From Flavobacterium ranwuense (GTDB taxonomy: Bacteria > Bacteroidota > Bacteroidia > Flavobacteriales > Flavobacteriaceae), in NCBI RefSeq assembly GCF_004349315.1, contig NZ_SMLH01000001.1:496001-560000 (forward strand): a stretch of 64,000 nucleotides of DNA, in the 5' to 3' direction. The notes below the pieces were generated by a model. That model saw nothing but the letters and a program-made list of their open reading frames with translations. It ran no database searches and had not been told where the DNA came from. The position numbers and the translations under genes were made by a program. This document shows, in pieces, positions 51,081 through 64,000 of the stretch (the first letter of the stretch is position 1; each line of letters begins with the position of its first letter).

Positions 51081-53411
51081 TTATTTCTTAACGCTGTATT
51101 TTGCGGTTCTAGCGTCTTCGATTACCCCTTTCCAGTTTAATCCAAAACCAAAATCATACACATTTCCAGCAGCATCTTTATAGGGTGTCATGTCGTGAGG
51201 AACGTCTTCCAATTGTTTTTCAACAGTTGTCATGTTCAATGGCATTTGCAAAGGCAACAATCCGGAAGGTTCTGTTTTACCCGAAACAATATCCAACAAA
51301 GCTTCTATTTGTACGCCAAATTCTCCCACGATGGCATCTACTTCTTTTTCAAATTCCCCAAAAACCATTGGATTAGAAATATTCACAGACACTAATACCG
51401 GCTTTCCATTCATGGCTTTTTTAGTTTCCAGAATGGTGTTTAAATCCGGATACGAATTTGATTTTGATATTTTATTCCAATACGAACGGTTGGTAATCGT
51501 TGGGTCAATCACAGGATCTCCAGCAGCAATACTTTGCGCTCTGGCATCGACTGCGGTATAGTCTTTTAATTGCAAACTAATGGGCACATATCCATTTCCA
51601 CCGGCTTCTCTATCGGCTCTACTGTATCCTCCGCTTATCGGACTTTTGATAAATACAATGGCGAAATCTGCTTTAGCAGGATCATCCGTTACCGTATAAT
51701 ATTTTTTAATCAATTCTAAATTAACCGGATATTCAATTTTTTCTGATGATGGTTGACCAAAAAAGTTGATTCCCGCAGGAGTAACTCTTTTTGGGATATA
51801 AACTGTCTTTCCTTTTGCAATTGGCAACGTTTTATTTTGATTTTTAATCATCACAACAGACTTCAATTGCGCGTCGTATCCTGCTTTCATAAAATAAGGT
51901 TTCCCCACAATAGCTTTGGTCTCCATAGGGTCTAAATAGGAGTTTTCGAACAATCCCACTCTGAAAATATTCAAAAGTAAACGAACCGCTGATTGCTCAA
52001 AACGCTTGCGCATGAATGGTTCACCGTGTTCTTTTATTCCCATTTGGTACGCTTCCAGCACCGGATTAATATCATTATTCCCGCCAAATTGATCGACCCC
52101 TGCCATCAAAACTTTATAATGTCTTTCGGCAATACTTAATTTTTCAACACCCCAAGATTTCCCAGAGAAAACATCAGGAGTAGGGCCTTCATCTGCAGTA
52201 ATCAGCCAATCCGTACAAACGACTCCTTCATAACCGTATTGATCTCTTAATAAATCCGTAATGATGTATTTACTGAATCCGTTTCCAACATTCTCACCGT
52301 ATTTTTTATCCTGACCATACGAAATTGTGTAATACGGCATCACTGCTGAGGCTTTTTTAGTACTGCCATTCAATTTAAAGGCACCCTCTGTAAAAGGTTT
52401 TAAATGGGTTTCGAAATTATTTCCCGGATACACTGCAAATTTTCCGTATGCAAAATGACCATCACGACCACCTTCTTCCGGACCTCCACTTGGCCAGTGT
52501 TTGATCATCGCATTGACACTTTGATTTCCCCATCCTTCATAAGCAGCAATCGATTTTGGTGATGTTTGAAATCCATCCACATAAGCTCTTGCCATATCTG
52601 TTGCCAGTTTTGGGTCTTCGCCAAAAGTACCCACAAAACGATTCCATCTTGGTTCTGTTGCCAAATCAATCTGTGGCGATAGCGCTGTGGTGATTCCCAT
52701 GGCTCTGTATTCTTTGGCAGCAATCGCACCAAATTGTTCCGTGATAGCGGCATCAAAAGTAGCAGCTAATCCTAATTCTTCGGGCCATTGTGATATAGCT
52801 CCACCAGAACCTGCATTGTATTCGGCATCTTTATTGGCTCCATTTCTTGGGTCAGAACTATTGTTGGAAGGGATGCCCATTCCAATACCTTCTACTAATG
52901 CTTGTATATTATTATTCCATGTTGCAGTAACTATTGGACTTTCAACAGATGTCATTAGTACATGGCGTAAATTATCTTTGGTTAAAAATGCAATTTGTTG
53001 ATCAGACAAATCAGATGATTTTGCACCACTTTTAGAAAATGGTTTTTCATTATAGGTTCCGGTAAACATTCCTGCTTCCTGTGCCGGAATAGCTTGATGC
53101 CTGCTGTATAACATTAATCCGGCCATTTGCTCTACCGTCATTTTAGAGGCAAGATCTTTGGCACGTTCTGCTACCGGTTTTCTCCAATCTTCATAAATAT
53201 CTAACTTCCCATTTTTGTTGAGGTCTTTAAAAGCCAAGCCGTCTGCTTGTATGATTTTAATTCCTGATTTTGGAGAATATCCTAATGTTTGTCCTCCTTG
53301 GTTTTGAACAATGTTATGGGAGTCTTTAGGCGTTTCTGTCCATTTTTTTTGGGCATACGTTTGCGTTCCAACAAGTAAAAGTAACGCAGGTAATACAATT
53401 CTTTTTTTCAT
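51081..53411 (-). CDS. GH3 beta-glucosidase-like hydrolase
   Basis: A 776-residue exported GH3 enzyme (signal peptide to QTYAQ). An EF-hand-like calcium loop DLNKNGKLDIYED (63-75) precedes the TIM barrel. The nucleophile is expected in GVVCTDW (Asp401) and KHWPSGG (304-310) binds substrate. The C-terminal alpha/beta sandwich follows (about 530-700). Such Bacteroidota enzymes release glucose or xylose from oligosaccharides in the periplasm. With the downstream PQQ dehydrogenase and cytochrome it could feed sugar oxidation. A terminator after it argues for separate transcription from those genes. Confidence 0.92.
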   Translation of the reverse strand: MKKRIVLPALLLLVGTQTYAQKKWTETPKDSHNIVQNQGGQTLGYSPKSGIKIIQADGLAFKDLNKNGKLDIYEDWRKPVAERAKDLASKMTVEQMAGLMLYSRHQAIPAQEAGMFTGTYNEKPFSKSGAKSSDLSDQQIAFLTKDNLRHVLMTSVESPIVTATWNNNIQALVEGIGMGIPSNNSSDPRNGANKDAEYNAGSGGAISQWPEELGLAATFDAAITEQFGAIAAKEYRAMGITTALSPQIDLATEPRWNRFVGTFGEDPKLATDMARAYVDGFQTSPKSIAAYEGWGNQSVNAMIKHWPSGGPEEGGRDGHFAYGKFAVYPGNNFETHLKPFTEGAFKLNGSTKKASAVMPYYTISYGQDKKYGENVGNGFSKYIITDLLRDQYGYEGVVCTDWLITADEGPTPDVFSGKSWGVEKLSIAERHYKVLMAGVDQFGGNNDINPVLEAYQMGIKEHGEPFMRKRFEQSAVRLLLNIFRVGLFENSYLDPMETKAIVGKPYFMKAGYDAQLKSVVMIKNQNKTLPIAKGKTVYIPKRVTPAGINFFGQPSSEKIEYPVNLELIKKYYTVTDDPAKADFAIVFIKSPISGGYSRADREAGGNGYVPISLQLKDYTAVDARAQSIAAGDPVIDPTITNRSYWNKISKSNSYPDLNTILETKKAMNGKPVLVSVNISNPMVFGEFEKEVDAIVGEFGVQIEALLDIVSGKTEPSGLLPLQMPLNMTTVEKQLEDVPHDMTPYKDAAGNVYDFGFGLNWKGVIEDARTAKYSVKK

Positions 53412-53746
53412 GTTTTGGTTCTTGTTTTTGGTAATTAAATATTTAAATTATAGTGGTTTATGTTTTGTAATATTATTTTTAAAGGGCAAAATTGTAATCG
53501 ACACTCTTTTCTGTTGCTGTCGAGTTCACGAAAAGGATTTCAAATATAATAAATATGTGTCATATCAACGCAATGAGATAAAAATATTTTCTAAAAAAAG
53601 ATGGAAACTCTTTAAAAATAAACTATTTAACGCTGGTTTTCACTTTTAATGTAATCTAGTGGTTTTTCAATTGCACCGAATTAAAGGGAAGTTTTTAATC
53701 GTCTTATTTTAACCGTTTTTTTAACCGTGTATTAACAAAAGGAGTT
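53412..53746. other. Non-coding gap left of the Crp/integrase scar
   Basis: These 335 bases hold no supported gene. Open frames here are short and lack homology-like features. The promoter of the GH3 gene should lie near its right edge (minus strand). Base composition is AT-rich like other gaps. Confidence 0.4.
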
Positions 53747-53863
53747 ATGGAGGAGATTTTAAGAAGACAAATTGAGGAAAGTGTGCAAATAACGGATGGT
53801 GAATTTCAATTGGTACCCTCTTGTTTTTCGGTTGGTAAATGTAAAAAGCACCAATGCATTTAG
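53747..53863 (+). pseudogene. N-terminal remnant of a Crp/Fnr family regulator
   Basis: AAAGGAG precedes an ATG, then 38 codons (begins MEEILRRQIEE, includes ITDGEFQLV and KCKKHQ) before TAG. The pattern 'x-x-T-D-x-E-F...F-x-x-x-K-x-K-K-H-Q' is the start of Bacteroidota cyclic-nucleotide-binding (Crp/Fnr) regulators, which should continue for about 150 more residues. Only the first helix is left. Similarity ends at about 53855, exactly where the integrase remnant on the other strand begins. Confidence 0.55.
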
Positions 53864-53953
53864 GGTTAATCTACAATACAATGGAGATTGATTCTTCTTG
53901 TTTGTTCTGTTCTTTCCTTGAACAAATAGGATTTTAAAATTGTCTGTTGTCAT
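53759..53953 (-). pseudogene. N-terminal remnant of a tyrosine integrase
   Basis: A 64-codon frame. Its first ~32 residues (NFKILFVQGKNRTNKKNQSP, then LYCRLTLN) match the arm-type DNA-binding N-terminus of Bacteroidota phage-like integrases, which read '...RTNKKGQ-P-IYCRIT-NG'. After residue 32 (about base 53858) similarity stops and the rest is the antisense of the Crp/Fnr fragment. The catalytic domain is absent, so the element cannot be mobilised by this gene. Confidence 0.6.
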
Positions 53954-53998
53954 AACTTTTGGTTTAAGTTAGACGTACAATTAGTTACGATAAAAAAA

Positions 53999-54070
53999 TT
54001 GTTGCCTTTTAGAAAAAGAGATGTTGCCTAATATGTTGCCTTTTTTTGTAAAATAAGTTGGCAAGTTGGC
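53999..54070. repeat. Short repeats in front of the integrase remnant
   Basis: GTTGCCT occurs three times (54001, 54023, 54035) and AAGTTGGC twice in perfect tandem (54055-54070). Their position upstream of the integrase start suits arm-type integrase binding sites (inference). Confidence 0.4.
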
Positions 54071-54140
54071 AGAAGTCAAAAATTCTCTCTTCTCTACTGA
54101 ATCATCATGAAGTCTTGCTTTCACTACCGCCTTAAAACAA

Positions 54141-54170
54141 AAAAGACCTTACATTTCTGTAAAGTCTTTT
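54141..54170. terminator. Hairpin terminator beside the tRNA-like fragment
   Basis: AAAAGACCTTACA and TGTAAAGTCTTTT form a 13-bp stem with one G-T pair and a TTTC loop. On the minus strand it follows the tRNA-like 3' end, as terminators follow tRNAs in Flavobacterium. Confidence 0.7.
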
Positions 54171-54175
54171 TAAAA

Positions 54176-54222
54176 AGCTCCCTCTCTTGGGCTCGCCCCT
54201 CGGGACAGATTAGCAGTTAAAT
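54176..54222 (-). other. Possible tRNA 3'-end fragment (attachment-site relic)
   Basis: On the minus strand, CGAGCCCAAGAGAGGGAGC resembles the 3' T-arm and acceptor strand of a Flavobacterium tRNA (tRNA-Asn-like from memory). Upstream, ACTGCTAATC resembles an anticodon arm. No full cloverleaf can be drawn, so this is a fragment at most. A tRNA end next to an integrase start is the usual layout of an integrated element. Confidence 0.3.
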
Positions 54223-54386
54223 CAAGACTTGACGTTGTTTTACTTCTATTATGATGGCCAATTTGATGCCTATTGTATTAATTTAATGTTTGTTTGTATA
54301 CAAAGATAATGATGAATCTTAATTCTGATTTATTAAATGAAGATTATTTTTTAGCGAACTAGTTTTCCTTAATTTCTTCTAAAATC

Positions 54387-57248
54387 CTACCCCACCTTCG
54401 CAAACCCACTCACAAAAGTTTCTACAAATCCAATAATCTTACTCAAGATTCTATCACCTGTTTTCTTACGTTCCAATACTTTGGGTTTTTCACCTTCTAT
54501 TAAGTCCAAAAGTTCATCTCTTAAAGGTTCACGTTCGGCAAAGAGGTAATTTTCTATTAGCTGTTCTGTTTTTTCTTCTGATAAGTTTTCTTCTTGTACC
54601 AGTAGTTTGAAGGCTTTTATCTGTTCTTCATTCCAGTATTTTTCAAATTGGTCTGGTAGGTCTTCTGTGTCTTCTATTGCGGGAAGGTTTTCTAGTATGA
54701 AACGTTCTATCAGTTCACGTTTGCTTCTCAGGTTTGCTTCTCCTGTCAGTAAATCAATGATTTCTTTTTGCTTCTTGGATTTCTCTTTTGGGTCGGCATT
54801 TTTTAAGCTTGCCAATAGTTTTAGAATATAAGTAACGTTGATTTCATCACGGTGTATTAATTCCAATTCAAAATCTACGTCTTCCAGTATGGAAACTTTT
54901 TCTTTACTATGGTCATTCTTTACTTTATCGTATAAATCGAGATACTTGCTTTTATAATCTTCAAAAAGTTGCTCGTCCATATCCAAATCTTCACCATTGA
55001 AATCGGAGAATGTGGCCAGCACGTTTTTGATACGCATTAGTTCCCGGAACGCTTTGATGAATTCTAATTCCTCCTTTTCACTTTGTAAATCATTTACGCT
55101 GTTTACCGTTGGTACAATTTTTAATAGTTCATTGACTGCTTCACTGAATTGTTGCACGTAATCCTCGTAAGGTTGCATTATAATCACGTCTATTGCGTCT
55201 TTATTAGAAAAGAGTGCAATAGCATCATCAGTTGCTTTTTTGAGGTTACGGAACACTATAATGTTTCCCTGTGATTTTTGTTCGTTCAGGATTCTATTTG
55301 TTCTGGAATAGGCTTGAATCAATCCGTGATGTTTCAAGTTCTTATCCACATACATCGTATTCAGGTTTGGACTATCAAAACCAGTTAAAAACATATTGAC
55401 TACTAGGAGAATATCAATCTTTTTGTTTTTTACGTTTTTAGAAATATCATTGTAGTAATTATAGAATAAAACGCTGTCTTTGGTAGAGAATTTAGTGCCA
55501 AACATGGTATTATAATCCACAATAAATGCATCTAGCTTTTCTCTGGAATGCGAGTTTAAACCATACTTTTCAGTTGGTTCTGCTGCTATATCTAATTCTT
55601 CAGGGATAAAACCATTAGCATCTTTATCATCTTCATTGGTAGCATAACTGAAAATAGTTGCAATTTTTAAATTGTGTTTTCCTTCTTCTTTTTTGGCTTG
55701 AAGGATTTCATAATATTTAATCAGGGTTTCCACGCTACTCACACAAAACATTGCGGTGAATTCCCTGCTATGGGTTTTACGATTGTGATTGTCAATGATG
55801 TAATCAGCAATTTTGTTTAAACGCAAAGGAGATTCCATTAATTCCTTGGTATCGATGTCTTCTACTTCAATGTCTATGTTAGTTTTGCTGTCGTCTTTTT
55901 GTTTGTAACGACCCACATATTCCACGGAGAACTTTAAAACGTTCTCGTCTTTAATGGCATCTGTAATCACATATTTGTGCAAACATTCGCCAAACAACTC
56001 TTTGGTGGTGCGTTTCCCTAATTCATTCTTTACCGCATTATCAGCAAAAATTGGCGTACCGGTAAAGCCAAATAATTGAATATTATTGAAAAAAGATTTT
56101 ATGCGAGTATGTGTTTCCCCAAACTGAGAACGGTGGCATTCGTCAAAAATGAATACAATTCGTTCGTCTTTTAGTTTATCCATTTTACTTAAATACTGCT
56201 TTTTACTAATGGCTGTATTTAGTTTTTGAATGGTGGTTACAATGAGTTTAGTGTCATCCGAGAACTGATTTACCAATGCTTTTGTATTGTCTGTTCCGTC
56301 GATGCTTCCTTTGCTAAAGCTATTGAATTCTTTTGTGGTTTGGTAATCCAAATCTTTTCGGTCTACCACAAAAACCACTTTTTTGACTTGTGGTAAATTC
56401 ATTAAAATCTGACTGGCTTTAAACGAAGTCAAGGTTTTTCCGGAACCAGTAGTATGCCAGATATAGGCATTTTTGTTTGTGTTCTTTACCGTCTCAACCA
56501 ATGCTTCTACCGCATAGTATTGGTAGGGGCGAAGCACCATTAGTATTTTGTAGGCTTCACTCAACACAATGTATTTGCATATCATTTTAGAGATATGGCA
56601 CGGATCTAAAAAGTCCGTGGTAAAACCATTCAATATATTTGTCAGGCGATTGTTGGCTACATCCGTCCAATAGAAGGTTTGCTTGAACGACTGATTGCGG
56701 TTGTTAGCGTAGTATTTTGTGTTTACACCATTACTGATTACAAAAATCTGAACGTACTGGAATAAGGCTGAATTCGCTCCAAAGGAATGGCGTTGGTAGC
56801 GATTGATTTGGTTGAACGCTTCTTTAAGTTCCAGTCCACGGCGTTTGAGTTCTATTTGTACCAATGGCAATCCATTGATAAGTAGCGTTACATCGTATCT
56901 GTTTTTATAAATGCCATCGATAGATACTTGGTGCGTAACCTGAAATTGGTTTTGACACCAATGCTCCGTATTGATAAATTCAAAGTATAAATCCTCTCCA
57001 TTATCTTTCAGGATGTGTTGTCTTTCTCGTAGTGTTTTTGCTTTTTCAAAAACAGATCCTTTGTTTAAAATATTAAGCACACGGTCAAACTCTTTGGCAG
57101 TAAACTCTTTCTTGTTATGCTTTTCTAGTTGTACTTTTAGATTGGTAAGCAGTTCTTTTTCGTCAACAATAGTTACGCCCGCATAACCCATTGTTTGTAA
57201 TTGGGCTACTAATTGTTCTTCCAGAATTTGTTCAGGTTGTTTTGCCAT
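54387..57248 (-). CDS. hsdR: Type I restriction endonuclease subunit R
   Basis: The 953-residue motor/nuclease subunit. The N-terminal PD-(D/E)xK nuclease has Asp119 and the E-x-K of QIELKRRG (Glu133, Lys135). The helicase motor has Walker A TGSGKT (267-272), DECH in FDECHRSQFG, FGFTGTP and QAYSRTNRI, followed by a C-terminal helical region. With HsdM and HsdS it cuts unmodified DNA after ATP-driven translocation. All motifs are intact. Last gene of the leftward operon; its start abuts the fic stop (one base shared). Confidence 0.96.
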   Translation of the reverse strand: MAKQPEQILEEQLVAQLQTMGYAGVTIVDEKELLTNLKVQLEKHNKKEFTAKEFDRVLNILNKGSVFEKAKTLRERQHILKDNGEDLYFEFINTEHWCQNQFQVTHQVSIDGIYKNRYDVTLLINGLPLVQIELKRRGLELKEAFNQINRYQRHSFGANSALFQYVQIFVISNGVNTKYYANNRNQSFKQTFYWTDVANNRLTNILNGFTTDFLDPCHISKMICKYIVLSEAYKILMVLRPYQYYAVEALVETVKNTNKNAYIWHTTGSGKTLTSFKASQILMNLPQVKKVVFVVDRKDLDYQTTKEFNSFSKGSIDGTDNTKALVNQFSDDTKLIVTTIQKLNTAISKKQYLSKMDKLKDERIVFIFDECHRSQFGETHTRIKSFFNNIQLFGFTGTPIFADNAVKNELGKRTTKELFGECLHKYVITDAIKDENVLKFSVEYVGRYKQKDDSKTNIDIEVEDIDTKELMESPLRLNKIADYIIDNHNRKTHSREFTAMFCVSSVETLIKYYEILQAKKEEGKHNLKIATIFSYATNEDDKDANGFIPEELDIAAEPTEKYGLNSHSREKLDAFIVDYNTMFGTKFSTKDSVLFYNYYNDISKNVKNKKIDILLVVNMFLTGFDSPNLNTMYVDKNLKHHGLIQAYSRTNRILNEQKSQGNIIVFRNLKKATDDAIALFSNKDAIDVIIMQPYEDYVQQFSEAVNELLKIVPTVNSVNDLQSEKEELEFIKAFRELMRIKNVLATFSDFNGEDLDMDEQLFEDYKSKYLDLYDKVKNDHSKEKVSILEDVDFELELIHRDEINVTYILKLLASLKNADPKEKSKKQKEIIDLLTGEANLRSKRELIERFILENLPAIEDTEDLPDQFEKYWNEEQIKAFKLLVQEENLSEEKTEQLIENYLFAEREPLRDELLDLIEGEKPKVLERKKTGDRILSKIIGFVETFVSGFAKVG

Positions 57249-58783
57249 TAGTTAAAATATACTTGATAATTTTCTTCTATCTCTTTTACTTCTTCGTCTG
57301 TAAGTGTGCCAAACTCTTTTTCTTTGGCTCTTTTGGATAAAGAACCGTTGTTTTGTTCTAGGAATCGAATTAGCAAAGCCACCATTTTATCAGGCATTTG
57401 ATAGTTGTTGTCTAGCCACAATTTCATAGCATCGTATTTTTGTAAATACGCTACTTCTTCGGGTATTATTTTGTGAATGGTGTAATCTACACATTCGCTT
57501 AAGAACTCTGCTTGTAGCGTAGCATCAAAATAACGATAGAAATCTATGGTGTCGTTCAGTACGTTTACGTTATTATCCTTGGTTTTCTCCCATTCAATAA
57601 AGTCCAATAGCGGATGCGAATAGTTTTCTAATACTTTTCGATAATCTTCTATTCGTTCTAAAATAGAAGCAGATACTGGAAAAATTATCCCTTGCGGACT
57701 GTATTTCATTGCGGACAATAAATGGTGAATTATGTAGCGGTGTATTCTGCCGTTTCCATCAACAAATGGATGGATGAACACAAATCCAAAAGCGATTGCA
57801 GTGGCGGTTAATAAGGGATGAAATCCTGTGGTTTCCATTTGTTTGGAAGCTTCCAGCAATCCGTTCATCAGTTTTTCAATATCTGCCTGTTTCGATGAAA
57901 TGTGTTCTGGAATTGGTTCACCAGTAGTTCTGTCATGTTCACCAACAAACCCGCCTTCGGTACGATACCCCATGGTTACAAACTTGCTGTTTTCAATTAC
58001 AATTTGTTGTAGTCGATACAATTCTTCTTTGCTTAATGGTTTGCTTCCAGCTTGTCCAATGGCTTTTCCCCAGCGAAGTGCTCTGTTTTGTGTTGGGTTT
58101 TCCCCTTCAATGCTAAACGAAGCTTTGGAATCTTTCAACAATAAAAAGGAGGAGGTTCTTAAAAGTACATCCTTGTGTATTCCTTTAATAACGGTGTTAA
58201 TGTTTTCCGTGCTGTTTTTGTCAAGGTAACTTTCCAGTTTTGGGGTTTTGAAGATTAACGGACAAAAATCAACGGTTCCAGGTAGGTTGTTCTTGATGCG
58301 GTGGCGACTTGAATTGATGGGTACAGGCGAAGCGAATTGCAGTTCTTCATCTACCAGCGGAATAAAGTTTTTTATGGTCAGGTCTGGAATAGGGAGTTGT
58401 TCCTGCAACAGCCATTCGTATAAAAACCATATTTTTCGGCTGTATTGTCCAGTTGGTTCGCTTTGTATTATGTTTTTAATTTCTTCTTTTGAAACAGATT
58501 GAAACAGTTTTTTAAAGAATAACAAGTTTATTCCTTCGTATTTTAATGCAAAAACGAGGTGCTTGTACAGCGTATCTTCAATAGCATTTCGGGAAGAAAA
58601 CACTTTCCAGTTCTCATTTTCATAACTCCTTCTTTTCTCACTAATAAGCGACAATCTGTTTGGAAAAGGCATAGCCAATCCCAGTCCTTCTATTATAGCA
58701 CCGTAACCCACTAATATTCCCTCTTCAGGTGCTTTGAGTCCGTGAAATACACTTGTTTTAAGTGAAAAACGCTTATTATTCAT
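57248..58783 (-). CDS. Fic domain AMP-transferase-like protein, class II
   Basis: A 511-residue Fic protein. The catalytic motif HPFVDGNGRIHR is at 338-349 and the inhibitory motif SFSIEG ((S/T)xxxE(G/N)) is at about 222-227, before the Fic core, so it is self-inhibited (class II). The C-terminal ~50 residues (ALLIRFLEQNNGSLSKRAK) look like a small winged helix. Fic enzymes usually transfer AMP to a protein hydroxyl. Here the gene lies between hsdS and hsdR in a type I system, a placement seen elsewhere. Upstream are six phased direct repeats. Target unknown. Confidence 0.92.
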   Translation of the reverse strand: MNNKRFSLKTSVFHGLKAPEEGILVGYGAIIEGLGLAMPFPNRLSLISEKRRSYENENWKVFSSRNAIEDTLYKHLVFALKYEGINLLFFKKLFQSVSKEEIKNIIQSEPTGQYSRKIWFLYEWLLQEQLPIPDLTIKNFIPLVDEELQFASPVPINSSRHRIKNNLPGTVDFCPLIFKTPKLESYLDKNSTENINTVIKGIHKDVLLRTSSFLLLKDSKASFSIEGENPTQNRALRWGKAIGQAGSKPLSKEELYRLQQIVIENSKFVTMGYRTEGGFVGEHDRTTGEPIPEHISSKQADIEKLMNGLLEASKQMETTGFHPLLTATAIAFGFVFIHPFVDGNGRIHRYIIHHLLSAMKYSPQGIIFPVSASILERIEDYRKVLENYSHPLLDFIEWEKTKDNNVNVLNDTIDFYRYFDATLQAEFLSECVDYTIHKIIPEEVAYLQKYDAMKLWLDNNYQMPDKMVALLIRFLEQNNGSLSKRAKEKEFGTLTDEEVKEIEENYQVYFN

Positions 58784-58816
58784 AGTATTAGTGAAAAATG
58801 GTTATTCAAATATAAT

Positions 58817-58951
58817 GGAAAAATAGGTTTTTTGTTGGAAAAATAGGTTTAATATTTATTATTTAAGGAAAAACAGGTTTTTTAATTTTGGAAAAACAGG
58901 TTTTAGTTGTGAAAAACAGGTAAAAAACAACAATTTTTCGGAAAAACAGGT
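58817..58951. repeat. Six helically phased direct repeats (GAAAAAYAGGT)
   Basis: GAAAAAYAGGT starts at 58818, 58838, 58868, 58891, 58911 and 58941, spaced 20, 30, 23, 20 and 30 bases, that is two or three DNA turns. The array fills the gap between the hsdS stop and the fic start and lies upstream of fic. It is probably a regulator-binding array controlling fic and hsdR. Confidence 0.8.
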
Positions 58952-58957
58952 ATGCAA

Positions 58958-60229
58958 TCATACAAACATTCCCTGTAACAATCCTTTTTTCCAAACTTCC
59001 GTATTCGTTAGCTGTGCCTGACAATGATTGATTTTGTCATCAATGGTAGAGAGAAAAGTAGCGATTTTGGTTTGTTCTTCTAAGCAAGGAATTAGAATAT
59101 CTATTGGCGCAAATTTAGAAATCCAATGTCTTTCATGTCCTCCAATTTCATAATTCATAATTTGCATTGCTTCGTAAATGAATTTAATGTCAATACCCTC
59201 GCGAGCAACTAATATTTTCATTGCTGAAGATTTTGCTTTAAACGGAAAATCAACAAATTGTGTTGCGGTTGTAAAATCATCAAATATTATTACTGGCAAA
59301 TTGTTTTCAAAGATTCCATTTGTCTCATTTGTATATCCTAAAATGAATGTCTTACCTGCGGTTAACACAGGTGTGGCAAATGAATTGTCGTATTCTGTAC
59401 TTGAAACCAAATATTTAGTGGGTTGTAAATAATCTAAACATTCCCCCAACTTCTTCTCCTCCCAATCCGCAAAAGCATTCCCATTATCTTGTCTGAACCT
59501 TGATTTATGGGATTTTCCTGATTGTCCAGATTTTTGTTGGATTGAATTATCAAAATCCTTTTCATCCTTTAAATCAAGTGAATCAGGGTTCGGACTGAAT
59601 ATCTTTTGCATCACGCCTTTTTTGTATTGCTCTAAAAGGCTTTTCTTTTGCTTCAAGGCTTGTAATTTTTCATCTACTTTCGTTAGGAATGTGGCGATTT
59701 TTTGTTGTTCTGGGAGGGTGGGGAAAGCAAGAGACATACTTCTAATACTTTGAAAGTTTAATCCTTCCCGACCACTTCCCGTTTGTAAACTGGTAAATAT
59801 ATTTTGACCTTTTTCAGAAGAAAATATTGGTTGTATAAAATAAGGTTCATTTTCTTTATTCAATCTAATAATACAAACGTGTTGATTAACATTTCCAACA
59901 GTGAAATTGTTAGGAACTACACAACTTCTACCTAAAGATGCTCCTGTAATATTTAATAGAATATCGTTTGCCTTAACAACACTATTTTTCATTGTGTTAT
60001 TAATTTTTTCTGTTATGAAAGTTGAATTTTCAAAAGATAATTTGCTGTCTAAAACATTTTGACTTCTAATAAATAAAATCCCTTTTTCAACATAAACAGA
60101 TTCACCTCCTAAAGGAGTTTTTCCACTGTTCACTTTTTCTGTTATTTTACCCAATTTCTTCAATTCCCATTCTCCTTTAAACTCAGGAAAACGCAAAGTG
60201 GGTGTTTTTTTTAGTTTTTCCATCATCAT
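58958..60229 (-). CDS. hsdS: Type I restriction-modification specificity subunit
   Basis: A 423-residue HsdS made of two half-repeats. Each starts with a 'W-E-x-K-K-L-G' motif (EWELKKLGK near 20; DWEEKKLGE near 254), followed by a target recognition domain and a conserved coil (LPEQQKIATFLTKVDEKLQA at 172; LEEQTKIATFLSTIDDKINH near 384). It selects a bipartite DNA target for HsdM and HsdR. Three consecutive ATGs open the gene and the first overlaps the ORF6N stop (ATGA). A 35-codon palindrome-ended insertion lies between the halves (residues 212-247). Confidence 0.93.
   Translation of the reverse strand: MMMEKLKKTPTLRFPEFKGEWELKKLGKITEKVNSGKTPLGGESVYVEKGILFIRSQNVLDSKLSFENSTFITEKINNTMKNSVVKANDILLNITGASLGRSCVVPNNFTVGNVNQHVCIIRLNKENEPYFIQPIFSSEKGQNIFTSLQTGSGREGLNFQSIRSMSLAFPTLPEQQKIATFLTKVDEKLQALKQKKSLLEQYKKGVMQKIFSPNPDSLDLKDEKDFDNSIQQKSGQSGKSHKSRFRQDNGNAFADWEEKKLGECLDYLQPTKYLVSSTEYDNSFATPVLTAGKTFILGYTNETNGIFENNLPVIIFDDFTTATQFVDFPFKAKSSAMKILVAREGIDIKFIYEAMQIMNYEIGGHERHWISKFAPIDILIPCLEEQTKIATFLSTIDDKINHCQAQLTNTEVWKKGLLQGMFV
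59491..59595. repeat. Palindrome-ended 105-bp element inserted in frame in hsdS
   Basis: The ends GTCTGAACC (59491-59499) and GGTTCGGAC (59587-59595) are inverted repeats, extended by TGATT and ATTTA words on both arms. The element is 105 bp, exactly 35 codons, and encodes a polar linker with no fold. I recall 'GTCTGAACC...TGATT' fold-back elements as dispersed in Bacteroidota. Confidence 0.65.
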
Positions 60230-61134
60230 TGTTTCAATAGATTAAGAATACGCACAACTTCTTCATTCATTTTAGAAAAAGCAAAACATTTTTTGCCCAA
60301 ATCTTTAAGCGATGCACCAATATGATAGAGTTCAGTTTGATCAATGATTATAAAGCGGTCGTGTGCCACTGCCAGTTCGTGTATTTTTATGTCGGGATAT
60401 TGAGTGTTGTGTTTTAGCAAGTCCGTTGCCAGTTGCTTGCCAATGGTTTTGGTATAAATAGTTGCCGTAGTGCCAGGTTCTCTTTTTGCGAGCAATTTCA
60501 ACACGGTATCATCTACATAATTATCAATCAATTGTATGGAAGTTTTTGCACTTCGTACCAAATCAGAAACAAAAGTCCAGGCATCAAATACCTGACCATC
60601 AAAAAACAATCCTTTTTCCGCAATAGTACTTTTACTTTCCAAAGCCTTAAATACTTTGTCAAACTTATCGTCATTTTCAATAAGTCTGCTTTCAAATTTA
60701 TCCAAACGTTGAATTAAACCCGCATTTTGACTCAGCACTTTACGCATTTCTACAAAAGCATCCATTATCAAAATACTTATTTTTATGGCCGTTTCACTTC
60801 GCAAAACAGCCGAAAGCATGGCTATACCTTGTTCTGTAAAAGCATAAGGCAAATATCTGCTGCCACCGTGTTTCCCACTTGAGGTCACAATTTGTGACCT
60901 CAAGTTTTTAAACCGGTCACAATTTGTGACCAGTTCCATGTTTTCCGTTTCGGTTAATTGAAATCTGAATTTGTCAGGAAATCTTTCAATATTTCGTTTA
61001 ACAGCCTGATTCAAAACTTTCGTATCCACTTGATACAATTCGGCTAAATCACGGTCTATCATCACTTGAATTCCTTGAATGGTAAAAATTCTATTTTCTA
61101 CCTCATCATTTATATAGGGTTTTACTTTTGTCAT
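60226..61134 (-). CDS. ORF6N domain protein
   Basis: A 302-residue protein. The N-terminal ORF6N domain (about 10-110) reads IQVMIDRDLAELYQVDTKVL, FRFQLTETE and PYAFTEQGIAMLSAVLRS, typical of phage-derived DNA-binding (KilA/BRO-like) proteins. A coiled region (about 130-175) and an alpha/beta C-terminal domain follow. I choose the ATG at 61134 over a TTG at 61158. The frame lies between a truncated rhuM and hsdS, 4 bases overlapping hsdS. Two palindromes lie inside its reading frame. A regulatory role is inferred. Confidence 0.85.
   Translation of the reverse strand: MTKVKPYINDEVENRIFTIQGIQVMIDRDLAELYQVDTKVLNQAVKRNIERFPDKFRFQLTETENMELVTNCDRFKNLRSQIVTSSGKHGGSRYLPYAFTEQGIAMLSAVLRSETAIKISILIMDAFVEMRKVLSQNAGLIQRLDKFESRLIENDDKFDKVFKALESKSTIAEKGLFFDGQVFDAWTFVSDLVRSAKTSIQLIDNYVDDTVLKLLAKREPGTTATIYTKTIGKQLATDLLKHNTQYPDIKIHELAVAHDRFIIIDQTELYHIGASLKDLGKKCFAFSKMNEEVVRILNLLKQ
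60877..60935. repeat. Two palindromes with a common 17-bp core inside the ORF6N gene
   Basis: The first (60877-60905) is a perfect 29-bp palindrome around a central T. The second (60911-60935) is a 25-bp palindrome with one mismatched pair. Both share GGTCACAATTTGTGACC, and their centres are 32 bp apart, about three turns. They encode LVTNCD and SQIVTS. Confidence 0.85.
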
Positions 61135-61145
61135 TTTATACTTAT

Positions 61146-61463
61146 TTAATTGTGGCAAAAGAACTTTCTATCAGAATTTTTAATTATACCGAATTCAGTA
61201 CGATTTAAATCTGGATTATAAAAGACTTCCCAATCTCCATTAAATTCAACGGCAGTTGTTAAGTAATCCTTAACAACTGAATTTGATTCTAACTCCTTCT
61301 CTTTTAATATTTTAGATATGTGCATACTGATGTTTGGCACAGAGGTGTCAAAAAGTTCTGCCAATTGATTTTGGTTCATCCAAGCATCACCGTCTCTAGT
61401 AAAAAGTGCTACCTCAGCTTTGCCGTCAACTGTATTGTAAATAATAATGTCTTGTTTTTCCAT
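61146..61463 (-). pseudogene. Truncated RhuM-like protein
   Basis: A 105-residue frame. Residues 1-70 follow the RhuM/virulence-protein pattern (IIYNTVDGKAEVALF, AWMNQNQLAELFDTSVPNIS, ELESNSVVKDYLTTA), which in full-length members continues for about 250 further residues. Here the last ~35 residues are unrelated and a stop follows. It starts one base after the hsdM stop. Probably a decayed rhuM, as often found in type I loci; it may still be translated. Confidence 0.65.
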
Positions 61464-61464
61464 C

Positions 61465-63036
61465 TTAAAAAGGGGTTGCAATATTCAATTGTTTACAGAA
61501 ATCAGCAAGGATTTTATCGGTATTGGCAATTTTTGTGTCCAGTGCTTTTATATCATTCGCAATAGCGTCAATGTCAATGCTGTCTTCCGCTTCAAATGTA
61601 TCTACATAACGCGGAATGTTCAGGTTGTAATCGTTGGTGGCAATTTCTGCCAATGTAGCACGTTTGCTGTATTTATCTTCCTCGGTACGATTGCGGTAGG
61701 TTTCAATGATTTTATCAATGTGTTCTTCTCGTAATACGTTTTGGGTTTTTACCTTTTCAAAATGTTGGCTGGCATCTATAAATAAAACATCTTCCGGGTT
61801 TTCACGGCATTTTTTATACACCATAATACACGTAGGAATGCTTGTGCCATAAAAAATATTAGCAGGCAACCCAATCACGGCATCCAGATAGTTGCGGTCT
61901 TCAATCAAGTATTTACGAATGTGTTGTTCTGCTCCACCACGAAACAAAGCTCCGTGTGGTAATACTAATGCCATAGTTCCGTTTTCAGCCAGATGGTGAA
62001 TCATGTGTTGTACAAAAGCAAAGTCAGCTTTACTGCTTGGTGCTAACTTACCGTACTGGCTAAAGCGGTCATCACTTGTAAACAAAGGATTTGCGCTCCA
62101 ATTAGCAGAGAAAGGAGGATTAGCAACAATAGCTTCAAATTGTTTGTCTAAATGTTGTGGGTGTTCCAAAGTGTTTTCCTGTTTAATGTCAAATTTGCGA
62201 TAATGTACATCGTGCAAAATCATGTTCATTCTCGCCAAGTTATAAGTAGTACGGTTCATTTCCTGTCCGTAAAAGTTAGACACTTCACTTACTTCTTTGG
62301 CAACACGTAATAACAATGAACCAGAGCCACAGGTAGGATCATAAACGGATTTTAGTTTGCTTTTGCCAGTGGTAACAATCTTAGCTAATATTTTACTGAC
62401 TTCTTGTGGTGTATAGAATTCACCTGCTTTTTTACCTGCTCCACTGGCAAACTGTCCAATGAGGTATTCGTAGGCATCACCTAAGACATCGAGTTCTGTG
62501 TTTTCGAGTTTAAAGTCAATTTGGTCTAAATGAAAAAGGACTTTTGAGATAATGTCATTTCTCGCTTCAGGTGTTTTTCCTAGTTTAGTACTATTCAAAT
62601 CCATATCCTCGAAGAGATTGTCAAAATCATCTTCGCTCTCTGTACCCATCGTACTTTGTTGGATATTAATCAGGATTTTTTGCAGGTCTTCTATAATAAA
62701 ACTGCTCACGCCTTCCACATCGCTATTTCCACGTTTGGCAATTTCGCTAAAGAGTTCATTGGGTTTCAGGAAGTATCCTAATTTGTCTAATGATTCTTCT
62801 CTAATGGCTTCAATGTATTCCTTTCCTTCGGGAGTGGTATCATCAATAGTTCTGAATTTTAATCCGTCTTGTTCCAGAATAGAATTGGCGTAAAGCTCCA
62901 TTTTCTCAGCGAGATACTTAAAGAAAATAAATCCTAATATGTAATCCCTGAATTCATCTGCATTCATTTTCCCACGAAGGGTATTGGCAATATTCCAAAG
63001 TTGTTGTTCTAACTGTTTTTTCTGGTCTTCTGACAT
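61465..63036 (-). CDS. hsdM: Type I restriction-modification DNA methyltransferase subunit
   Basis: A 523-residue N6-adenine methyltransferase: an N-terminal helical HsdM_N domain (1-150), SAM site DPTCGSGSLL (233-242) and catalytic NPPF (306-309), plus the conserved GEFYTPQEVS before the SAM motif. With HsdS it methylates the host target, and with HsdR it forms the restriction complex. First gene of the leftward operon hsdM, rhuM', ORF6N, hsdS, fic, hsdR. No promoter with full consensus is visible in the 244-base upstream gap. Confidence 0.96.
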   Translation of the reverse strand: MSEDQKKQLEQQLWNIANTLRGKMNADEFRDYILGFIFFKYLAEKMELYANSILEQDGLKFRTIDDTTPEGKEYIEAIREESLDKLGYFLKPNELFSEIAKRGNSDVEGVSSFIIEDLQKILINIQQSTMGTESEDDFDNLFEDMDLNSTKLGKTPEARNDIISKVLFHLDQIDFKLENTELDVLGDAYEYLIGQFASGAGKKAGEFYTPQEVSKILAKIVTTGKSKLKSVYDPTCGSGSLLLRVAKEVSEVSNFYGQEMNRTTYNLARMNMILHDVHYRKFDIKQENTLEHPQHLDKQFEAIVANPPFSANWSANPLFTSDDRFSQYGKLAPSSKADFAFVQHMIHHLAENGTMALVLPHGALFRGGAEQHIRKYLIEDRNYLDAVIGLPANIFYGTSIPTCIMVYKKCRENPEDVLFIDASQHFEKVKTQNVLREEHIDKIIETYRNRTEEDKYSKRATLAEIATNDYNLNIPRYVDTFEAEDSIDIDAIANDIKALDTKIANTDKILADFCKQLNIATPF

Positions 63037-63248
63037 TCTATGAGGCTCTATTATTTTATCCGCTAAAGTATTGAAAAATTAATTAGTACTATTGAGGAAA
63101 TCCGTATAAGAGTAGGATTTTTACAGATTTCTAAGCCATAAGTTGGTTTATCTTAGTTAGAGTGCAAATTCCAGTGATATTGACAATTTGGCTGTAAGGA
63201 TAAATTATTGAGAAGGTAGGAAAAGAATAGGTTGATTACTATTAAAAT

Positions 63249-63275
63249 GAAAAAAGACGGCTTTCACCGTCTCTT
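63249..63275 (-). terminator. Rho-independent terminator of the GIY-YIG gene
   Basis: On the minus strand, AGACGG and CCGTCT form a stem with a 6-base loop, followed by a T-run. It isolates the nuclease gene from hsdM. Confidence 0.85.
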
Positions 63276-63280
63276 CCTTA

Positions 63281-63922
63281 TTAATCTTGATATTTCCAAA
63301 GAAATCCTGAAGAACTCTTTCTTTCTCCTCTACAACAGCGTGAGATACAGGTTTTGGATAGTCCAGTAATCCTACTTGCTTCTGAAACAGAGCTATATTT
63401 AGCAATAATTACCCCATCTAAAGTAAATTGAGTGACTTGTTTCTTCCTGTTAACCGTAGCAGGTTTAAAGGTCTTGTTTAGGGAATAGGACCAATAACTT
63501 CCTTTCCAAAGAGTAGCGGTTGTACATGCGTTAGAAACCCTTCGTTTATCATAATTCAAGGTTGTTTCTATCTCCTTTAAGCTACTGAAGGAATTTATTA
63601 AAACACCCGCTTCATTGAACTGATAGATTATTTTTTTGAATCCTCCCCCAGAATCAGAATTGTATCCTTGTTCTTTACTATTGTATTGCAAGATGTATTG
63701 CCTTTCCTTTTCGGCAAGTTCATTTGTTGAGTTCGCAGAATCAATTTGCTCCCATTTAAATGCATCAGCTCCATATGTAGCGATTGCTTCTTGAAAATGA
63801 CCTCTTGTACCCTTATTTGCTTTTTGAATATGGTCTGCCTTACGCTCTTCTATTGACCTTGTCGTTACCCCTATGTAGGATTTTCCTGTTTCTTGATTAG
63901 TTACTTTGTAAACTATTTTCAT
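63281..63922 (-). CDS. GIY-YIG homing-type endonuclease with NUMOD repeats
   Basis: A 213-residue protein: GIY-YIG nuclease domain (VYKVTN at 4-9, SYIGVTTR at 15-22, a catalytic Glu in LAEKERQYI). Two NUMOD1-like DNA-binding helical repeats follow (FNEAGVLINSFSSLKEIETT and FTLDGVIIAKYSSVSEASRI). These are standard for intron- or phage-borne homing endonucleases, but no intron is visible, so it appears free-standing. I prefer the ATG at 63922; the frame extends to 63937. It lies upstream of hsdM, separated by its own terminator. Confidence 0.88.
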   Translation of the reverse strand: MKIVYKVTNQETGKSYIGVTTRSIEERKADHIQKANKGTRGHFQEAIATYGADAFKWEQIDSANSTNELAEKERQYILQYNSKEQGYNSDSGGGFKKIIYQFNEAGVLINSFSSLKEIETTLNYDKRRVSNACTTATLWKGSYWSYSLNKTFKPATVNRKKQVTQFTLDGVIIAKYSSVSEASRITGLSKTCISRCCRGERKSSSGFLWKYQD

Positions 63923-64000
63923 CTTCTTTTGCATCATCCTTCTTCATTTTTAGTTGATATTTACCTTTTTCAGAACTTTCTATTTTGCCTTCGTTCCTCA

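Follow-up and report, generated by a model that had tools for sequence, protein, structure and literature searches.

We find that positions 53747-53953 of the 64,000-nucleotide stretch of Flavobacterium ranwuense DNA analysed here (the window) very probably hold the decayed scar of a deletion, beside a tRNA-Asn gene that is a hot spot for insertions. The scar is present where it was first reported, and these positions span its two parts: crp', the remnant of a Crp/Fnr regulator gene, and int', the remnant of a tyrosine integrase gene from an older element, here called element B. Next to it lies a second element, island A, with an intact integrase, int A (Table 1; genomes of the genus are cited by G numbers, G000 being the own genome).

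Table 1. Positions of the scar, its surroundings and the adjoining genes of island A.
Feature	Positions	Strand	Basis
Leader of the lost crp gene	53606..53746	+	Homology to the intact crp leader and start of G241
crp', first 37-38 codons of a Crp/Fnr regulator, then directly TAG	53747..53860	+	Protein identity and alignment to intact orthologues
CATT common to both parents, deletion junction	53857..53860		Alignment of parents and window
int', first 31-32 codons of a tyrosine integrase, older element B	53857..53953	-	DNA homology and N-terminus alignment
Element B integrase leader, running into the tRNA-Asn flank	53954..54156	-	Lies within the ungapped 339-bp repeat
Island A attachment repeat, 39 bp	54157..54195		Identical copy at L003:11233-11271
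Island A, 18.1 kb, extending past the window to G000:C1:568271	54196..64000		Annotation; same distal end in G223
hsdR, island A	54387..57248	-	Pfam HSDR_N, EcoR124_C; 99% identical protein in G223
Fic family gene, island A	57248..58783	-	Pfam Fic
hsdS, island A	58958..60229	-	Pfam Methylase_S, two stretches
hsdM, island A	61465..63036	-	Pfam N6_Mtase, HsdM_N
GIY-YIG gene, island A	63281..63937	-	Pfam GIY-YIG, NUMOD1

On the plus strand, an ATG at 53747 opens a frame of 38 codons before the TAG, and on the minus strand a 64-aa ORF starts with the ATG at 53953, which begins with 31-32 integrase codons and then reads crp' in antisense. In alignment with intact crp, homology extends up to the CATT at 53857-53860; the own genome's intact integrase gene, compared as DNA, matches without gaps from exactly 53857 as far as 54195, which places the junction within these four bases (crp of G241, ...AATACATTGTTC; int A, ...CCCATTTAGGG; window, ...AATGCATTTAGGG). 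The preliminary description had read here about 32 integrase codons on the minus strand and about 36 Crp/Fnr codons on the plus strand, ending at about 53856, left by two genes that once faced each other and lost their inner parts. Our alignments bear this out: 31-32 codons match intact integrases, with DNA homology from 53857, 37-38 codons match intact Crp/Fnr orthologues at 68-76%, the halves lie convergently on opposite strands, and the genome holds no remainder of this crp or of a close integrase. Judged by the alignments, the homologies of both halves are far beyond chance. Pfam searches with the bare fragments returned no family for any of the five queries, the pieces being too short alone, and Pfam was run on whole orthologues in their place.

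The integrase half belongs to a 339-bp direct repeat. Positions 53857-54195 repeat the end of the intact integrase gene at 307 of 339 bases (90.6%, ungapped, E 2e-134), and the second copy (L003:10933-11271), 18 kb away beside tRNA-Asn, consists of the 5' end and leader of the 401-aa int A (Pfam Arm-DNA-bind_5, Phage_int_SAM_5 and Phage_integrase, all three) and extends over the last 19 nt of tRNA-Asn(GTT). int' aligns ungapped with the 5' end and N-terminus of int A (85% over 33 residues, E 1.4e-12); the catalytic domain is missing and, with 31-32 codons remaining, it is a fragment. When the whole genome was searched with int A, the matches other than int A and the fragment were three integrases at 34-36% identity and a C-terminal piece at 55%; none is like enough to int A to be the missing part, so that no remainder of a close integrase was found. 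The C-terminal piece, 74 residues within a 101-codon open frame (G000:C12:233604-233825), is another relic; we set it aside as the lost part of the B integrase at 55% identity to int A, against 85% for the fragment. A phage origin was also rejected, as all 67 phage records that matched int A did so at less than 60% identity.

Part of the repeat may belong to the host. Of the 77 bp closest to the tRNA (54119-54195), 76 agree with the host flank at the empty site of G214 and 72 with the int A side, and of the other 262 bp, 235 agree with the island A side. Because these 77 bp match the G214 flank better, comparison of the sequences suggests that they may be host flank rather than element B, whose share of the repeat may be about 262 bp only; the boundary between element and host within 53954-54156 is placed unsurely. 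One terminator-like hairpin was found, at 54140-54171, against an expectation of 0.4 from shuffles.

The repeat is direct, has the same orientation and register as the end of island A and stops at the same tRNA position, so that int' might instead derive from island A itself, as a partly duplicated integrase end arising from its insertion or from partial self-copying. We consider this improbable, since the copies are only 90.6% identical and, in a tree of nine integrase 5' regions (midpoint root for drawing), int' falls outside the six-row group that unites int A with the integrases of G223, G331, G146, G070 and G019 (support 97/99); int' stands beside the G031 row with moderate support (82/88). 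The first 31 codons are likewise nearer the G031 integrase, with a dS of 0.20 to it and 0.47 to int A. On this comparison, int' was probably not copied from int A. In G070 (L048:8853-9923), the integrase ORF covers 356 of 401 residues, though the DNA of the first codons is present, and it is possibly frame-shifted.

The Crp/Fnr half has intact counterparts at the same locus in four relatives. At the protein level, crp' is 76% identical to the intact 187-aa orthologues of G331 and G241, 74% to that of G223 and 68% to that of G214 (E 9e-12 to 8e-10 per genome), and 91 of 111 bases are identical to the DNA of G241. The remaining N-terminus is orthologous, sharing its locus with these four genomes and its leader with G241 and G331: window 53606-53860 is 80.9% identical to the intact crp leader and start at G241 L090:9788-10044 (79-81% in G241 and G331), and the bglX start and leader (53301-53597) match both genomes at 90-91%. 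The cNMP-binding domain and the DNA-binding C-terminus are missing from crp', which retains 37-38 codons only; the intact G241 orthologue has Pfam cNMP_binding, and its C-terminus is without a Pfam hit. Among 398 genus genomes, the 38-aa piece matched in 15, own included (E up to 1e-5), and the open frame at the match is at least 188 codons long in all 14 others (193-208 codons in the six best). Some weaker matches with shorter frames appear at the looser E of 0.001 in 150 genomes, for example in G076 (94 codons) and G020 (102 codons), at 44-46% identity.

The piece has diverged from every intact copy: nine of its 37 residues are unlike all six, which are not independent, G241 and G331 being the same over these codons and G392 and G232 nearly identical. 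In relative-rate comparisons of crp' with G241, changes were 18:1 for bases (p 8e-5) and 9:0 for residues (p 0.004) with G214 as outgroup, 17:2 and 9:0 with G223, and 13:5 (p 0.10) and 7:0 (p 0.016) with G392; these counts, like the dS values for int', cover 31-37 codons only. As far as such counts can tell, the crp piece is drifting. Both ORFs retain a start codon and are open, and yet it is very improbable that the 64-aa minus-strand frame across the junction or the 38-aa plus-strand frame is a functional small protein. The preliminary description had named one continuous conserved ORF across the junction as speaking against its reading. Of 150 genus genomes searched with the junction DNA, 18 matched somewhere, and both halves were matched in the own genome only. 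One other match crosses the join, 29 bases of G115 that belong to an unrelated 905-aa ORF (E 9e-4), and was taken as chance; an exact 22-base pattern across the join had no match in the genome contigs searched, from which the own genome was perhaps excluded. The long frames in the 14 other crp-matching genomes and the nine deviant residues also argue against a small protein, and the scar most likely encodes nothing useful.

The state before the deletion can be read largely from relatives. A 355-aa SDR oxidoreductase gene (Pfam PRISE/Epimerase in G241) directly follows crp in all six nearest relatives, so that crp and the integrase gene, though convergent, were probably not neighbours, which corrects the preliminary description. 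G214 (L092) presents the empty site, in the order crp, SDR gene, tRNA-Asn and M50 peptidase gene (rseP); G241 and G331 have crp and the SDR gene intact near bglX; and in G223 island A, with the same distal end, adjoins an intact crp-SDR pair without an integrase fragment there. Compared with G223, the own genome has the integrase leader and start in place of the SDR end, left of the attachment repeat. Four of the six best genomes (G331, G241, G223 and G214) have the pair here, towards tRNA-Asn from gdhB and, where bglX is present, also from bglX. We presume the names bglX, gdhB, rseP, atpG and hsd for these genes; their Pfam families were computed. Searches of the whole own genome found no remainder of the scar's crp, five other Crp/Fnr matches being paralogues at 51% identity or less, and no SDR gene, the same query finding its gene in four of four control genomes. 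None of the relatives examined was found to hold crp, the SDR gene and an intact element B together; the body of element B, which would have lain between crp and the B integrase, is therefore putative. Of the two complete genes that the preliminary description proposed to look for in a relative, crp was seen intact, with the SDR gene, and none of these relatives was found also to hold an intact element B.

Misassembly over the 339-bp repeat is a scarcely credible source of the join. In its favour, the assembly has 22 contigs and the end of the repeat coincides exactly with the join. Against it, 32 of 339 bases distinguish the two repeat copies, the contig measures 1.05 Mb, no other home for the missing halves was found in the genome, and the parts flanking the join are placed as in relatives.

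The crp-SDR pair itself seems to move or be rearranged, because G232 and G392 hold it elsewhere, near the ATP synthase gamma and GNAT genes (L093, L094). G007 and G010 are without crp-SDR at the tRNA-Asn locus. We rejected the notion of crp as a fixed core gene, its location varying among relatives, and also that of crp as cargo of integrase-bearing elements: none of the eight regions matching the integrase or its leader, two of which end at contig ends, holds a crp facing the integrase. A distant Crp/Fnr gene (23%) beyond rseP in G146 is unrelated to the scar crp.

An integrase of the int A family lies directly beside the tRNA in eight of 24 annotated tRNA-Asn/rseP regions, own included, a non-random sample in which five of the eight had been retrieved for matching the integrase and the own region was given. 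At the tRNA-Asn of G331 (L097:918-13636) there is another element of about 12.7 kb with a 95% identical integrase and 22-bp repeats; its cargo is different, but includes related AAA (70%) and 'ssb-like' (55%) genes, the latter label being our presumption, as a Pfam search gave no family. G036 and G051 (L078, L079) have two tRNA-Asn genes near rseP, one possibly from an earlier insertion or duplication.

We propose the following history for the scar. As seen in relatives, the site once comprised crp, the SDR gene, tRNA-Asn and rseP in that order, and bglX lay to the far side of crp. Element B, judging from its remnant, would have used the 3' end of tRNA-Asn as its insertion site, the integrase being the part that adjoined the tRNA. 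A deletion with its ends at the common CATT would then have fused crp codon 37 to B integrase codon 31, taking with it, presumably in a single event of which the window holds the junction, the rest of crp, the SDR gene, and the far end and body of B. Island A would have inserted at the same tRNA-Asn after this deletion, and the scar lies just outside its far attachment repeat. The scar is probably older than the arrival of island A, since crp' has drifted while the dS of the island A hsd genes to G223 is low. The earlier proposal of loss in one event stands for the deletion, which one junction with four shared bases fits, although the four-base overlap could be due to chance; the whole history would comprise two tRNA-Asn insertions and a deletion. 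A deletion made by the integrase at the attachment core was set aside, the join being about 300 bp from the attachment repeat.

Island A carries hsdR, Fic, hsdS, ORF6N-domain, hsdM, GIY-YIG and AAA genes and the intact integrase beside tRNA-Asn, the hsd genes making up a type I restriction-modification system. Identical 39-bp repeats mark its two ends, as they do, with unchanged sequence, in G223. One copy overlaps tRNA-Asn (L003:11253-11327), and within the other 54177-54195 are the last 19 nt of tRNA-Asn; because of this tRNA 3'-end repeat and the intact integrase at the tRNA, we read the stretch between the scar and tRNA-Asn as an island, which has both marks of a tRNA-integrated island; in G214 the site is seen empty. 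The dS between the own genome and G223 is 0.14 for hsdR, 0.17 for hsdM and 0.33 for the integrase, compared with 0.77 for the host gene rseP. Since the hsd values are far below that of rseP, island A is by this measure a recent traveller, and since the integrase value exceeds those of the hsd genes, it may be a mosaic of unsure age. The preliminary description had taken the region for a fixed, immobile element edge, which holds for the fragment only: the adjacent 18-kb island, with its intact 401-aa integrase and 39-bp end repeats, keeps what are, by sequence, the parts of a mobile element. It is conceivable, if unlikely, that the 339-bp repeat offers island A an integrase-free exit through homologous recombination; if so, the restriction-modification system would be lost while the scar stayed behind, and remnants of this kind could favour the loss of islands from tRNA hot spots.

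Microhomology-flanked (illegitimate) deletions are known in bacterial genomes, and the scar resembles them in its clean join with a four-base overlap; we found no difference, and the scar is an ordinary event of a known kind. Integrase remnants and successive island insertion at one tRNA are known as well: an 'integrase remnant' downstream of the integrase is mentioned in an account of a tRNA-Phe island (PMC3408504), and a passage on Flavobacterium psychrophilum mentions a tRNA-Asn island with a transposase (PMC8400371). The likeness lies in the fragment and the tRNA 3'-end repeat at the edge of the later island; in contrast to such systems, the remnant is here joined to what is left of a resident gene, and relatives reveal most of the parent states. 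The scar leaves existing knowledge unchanged. It exemplifies how successive elements at one tRNA gene may erode resident genes, here a regulator and the neighbouring oxidoreductase, and it marks the start of the neighbouring restriction-modification island at 54196.

A second likely deletion lies at 53597-53606 of the window, both flanks of which align with G241 and G331. In these two genomes, a 246-aa gene (Pfam 3keto-disac_hyd, about 1.03 kb) that is absent from the own genome stands between bglX and crp, and a relative of this gene is found next to or near bglX in G003 and G104.
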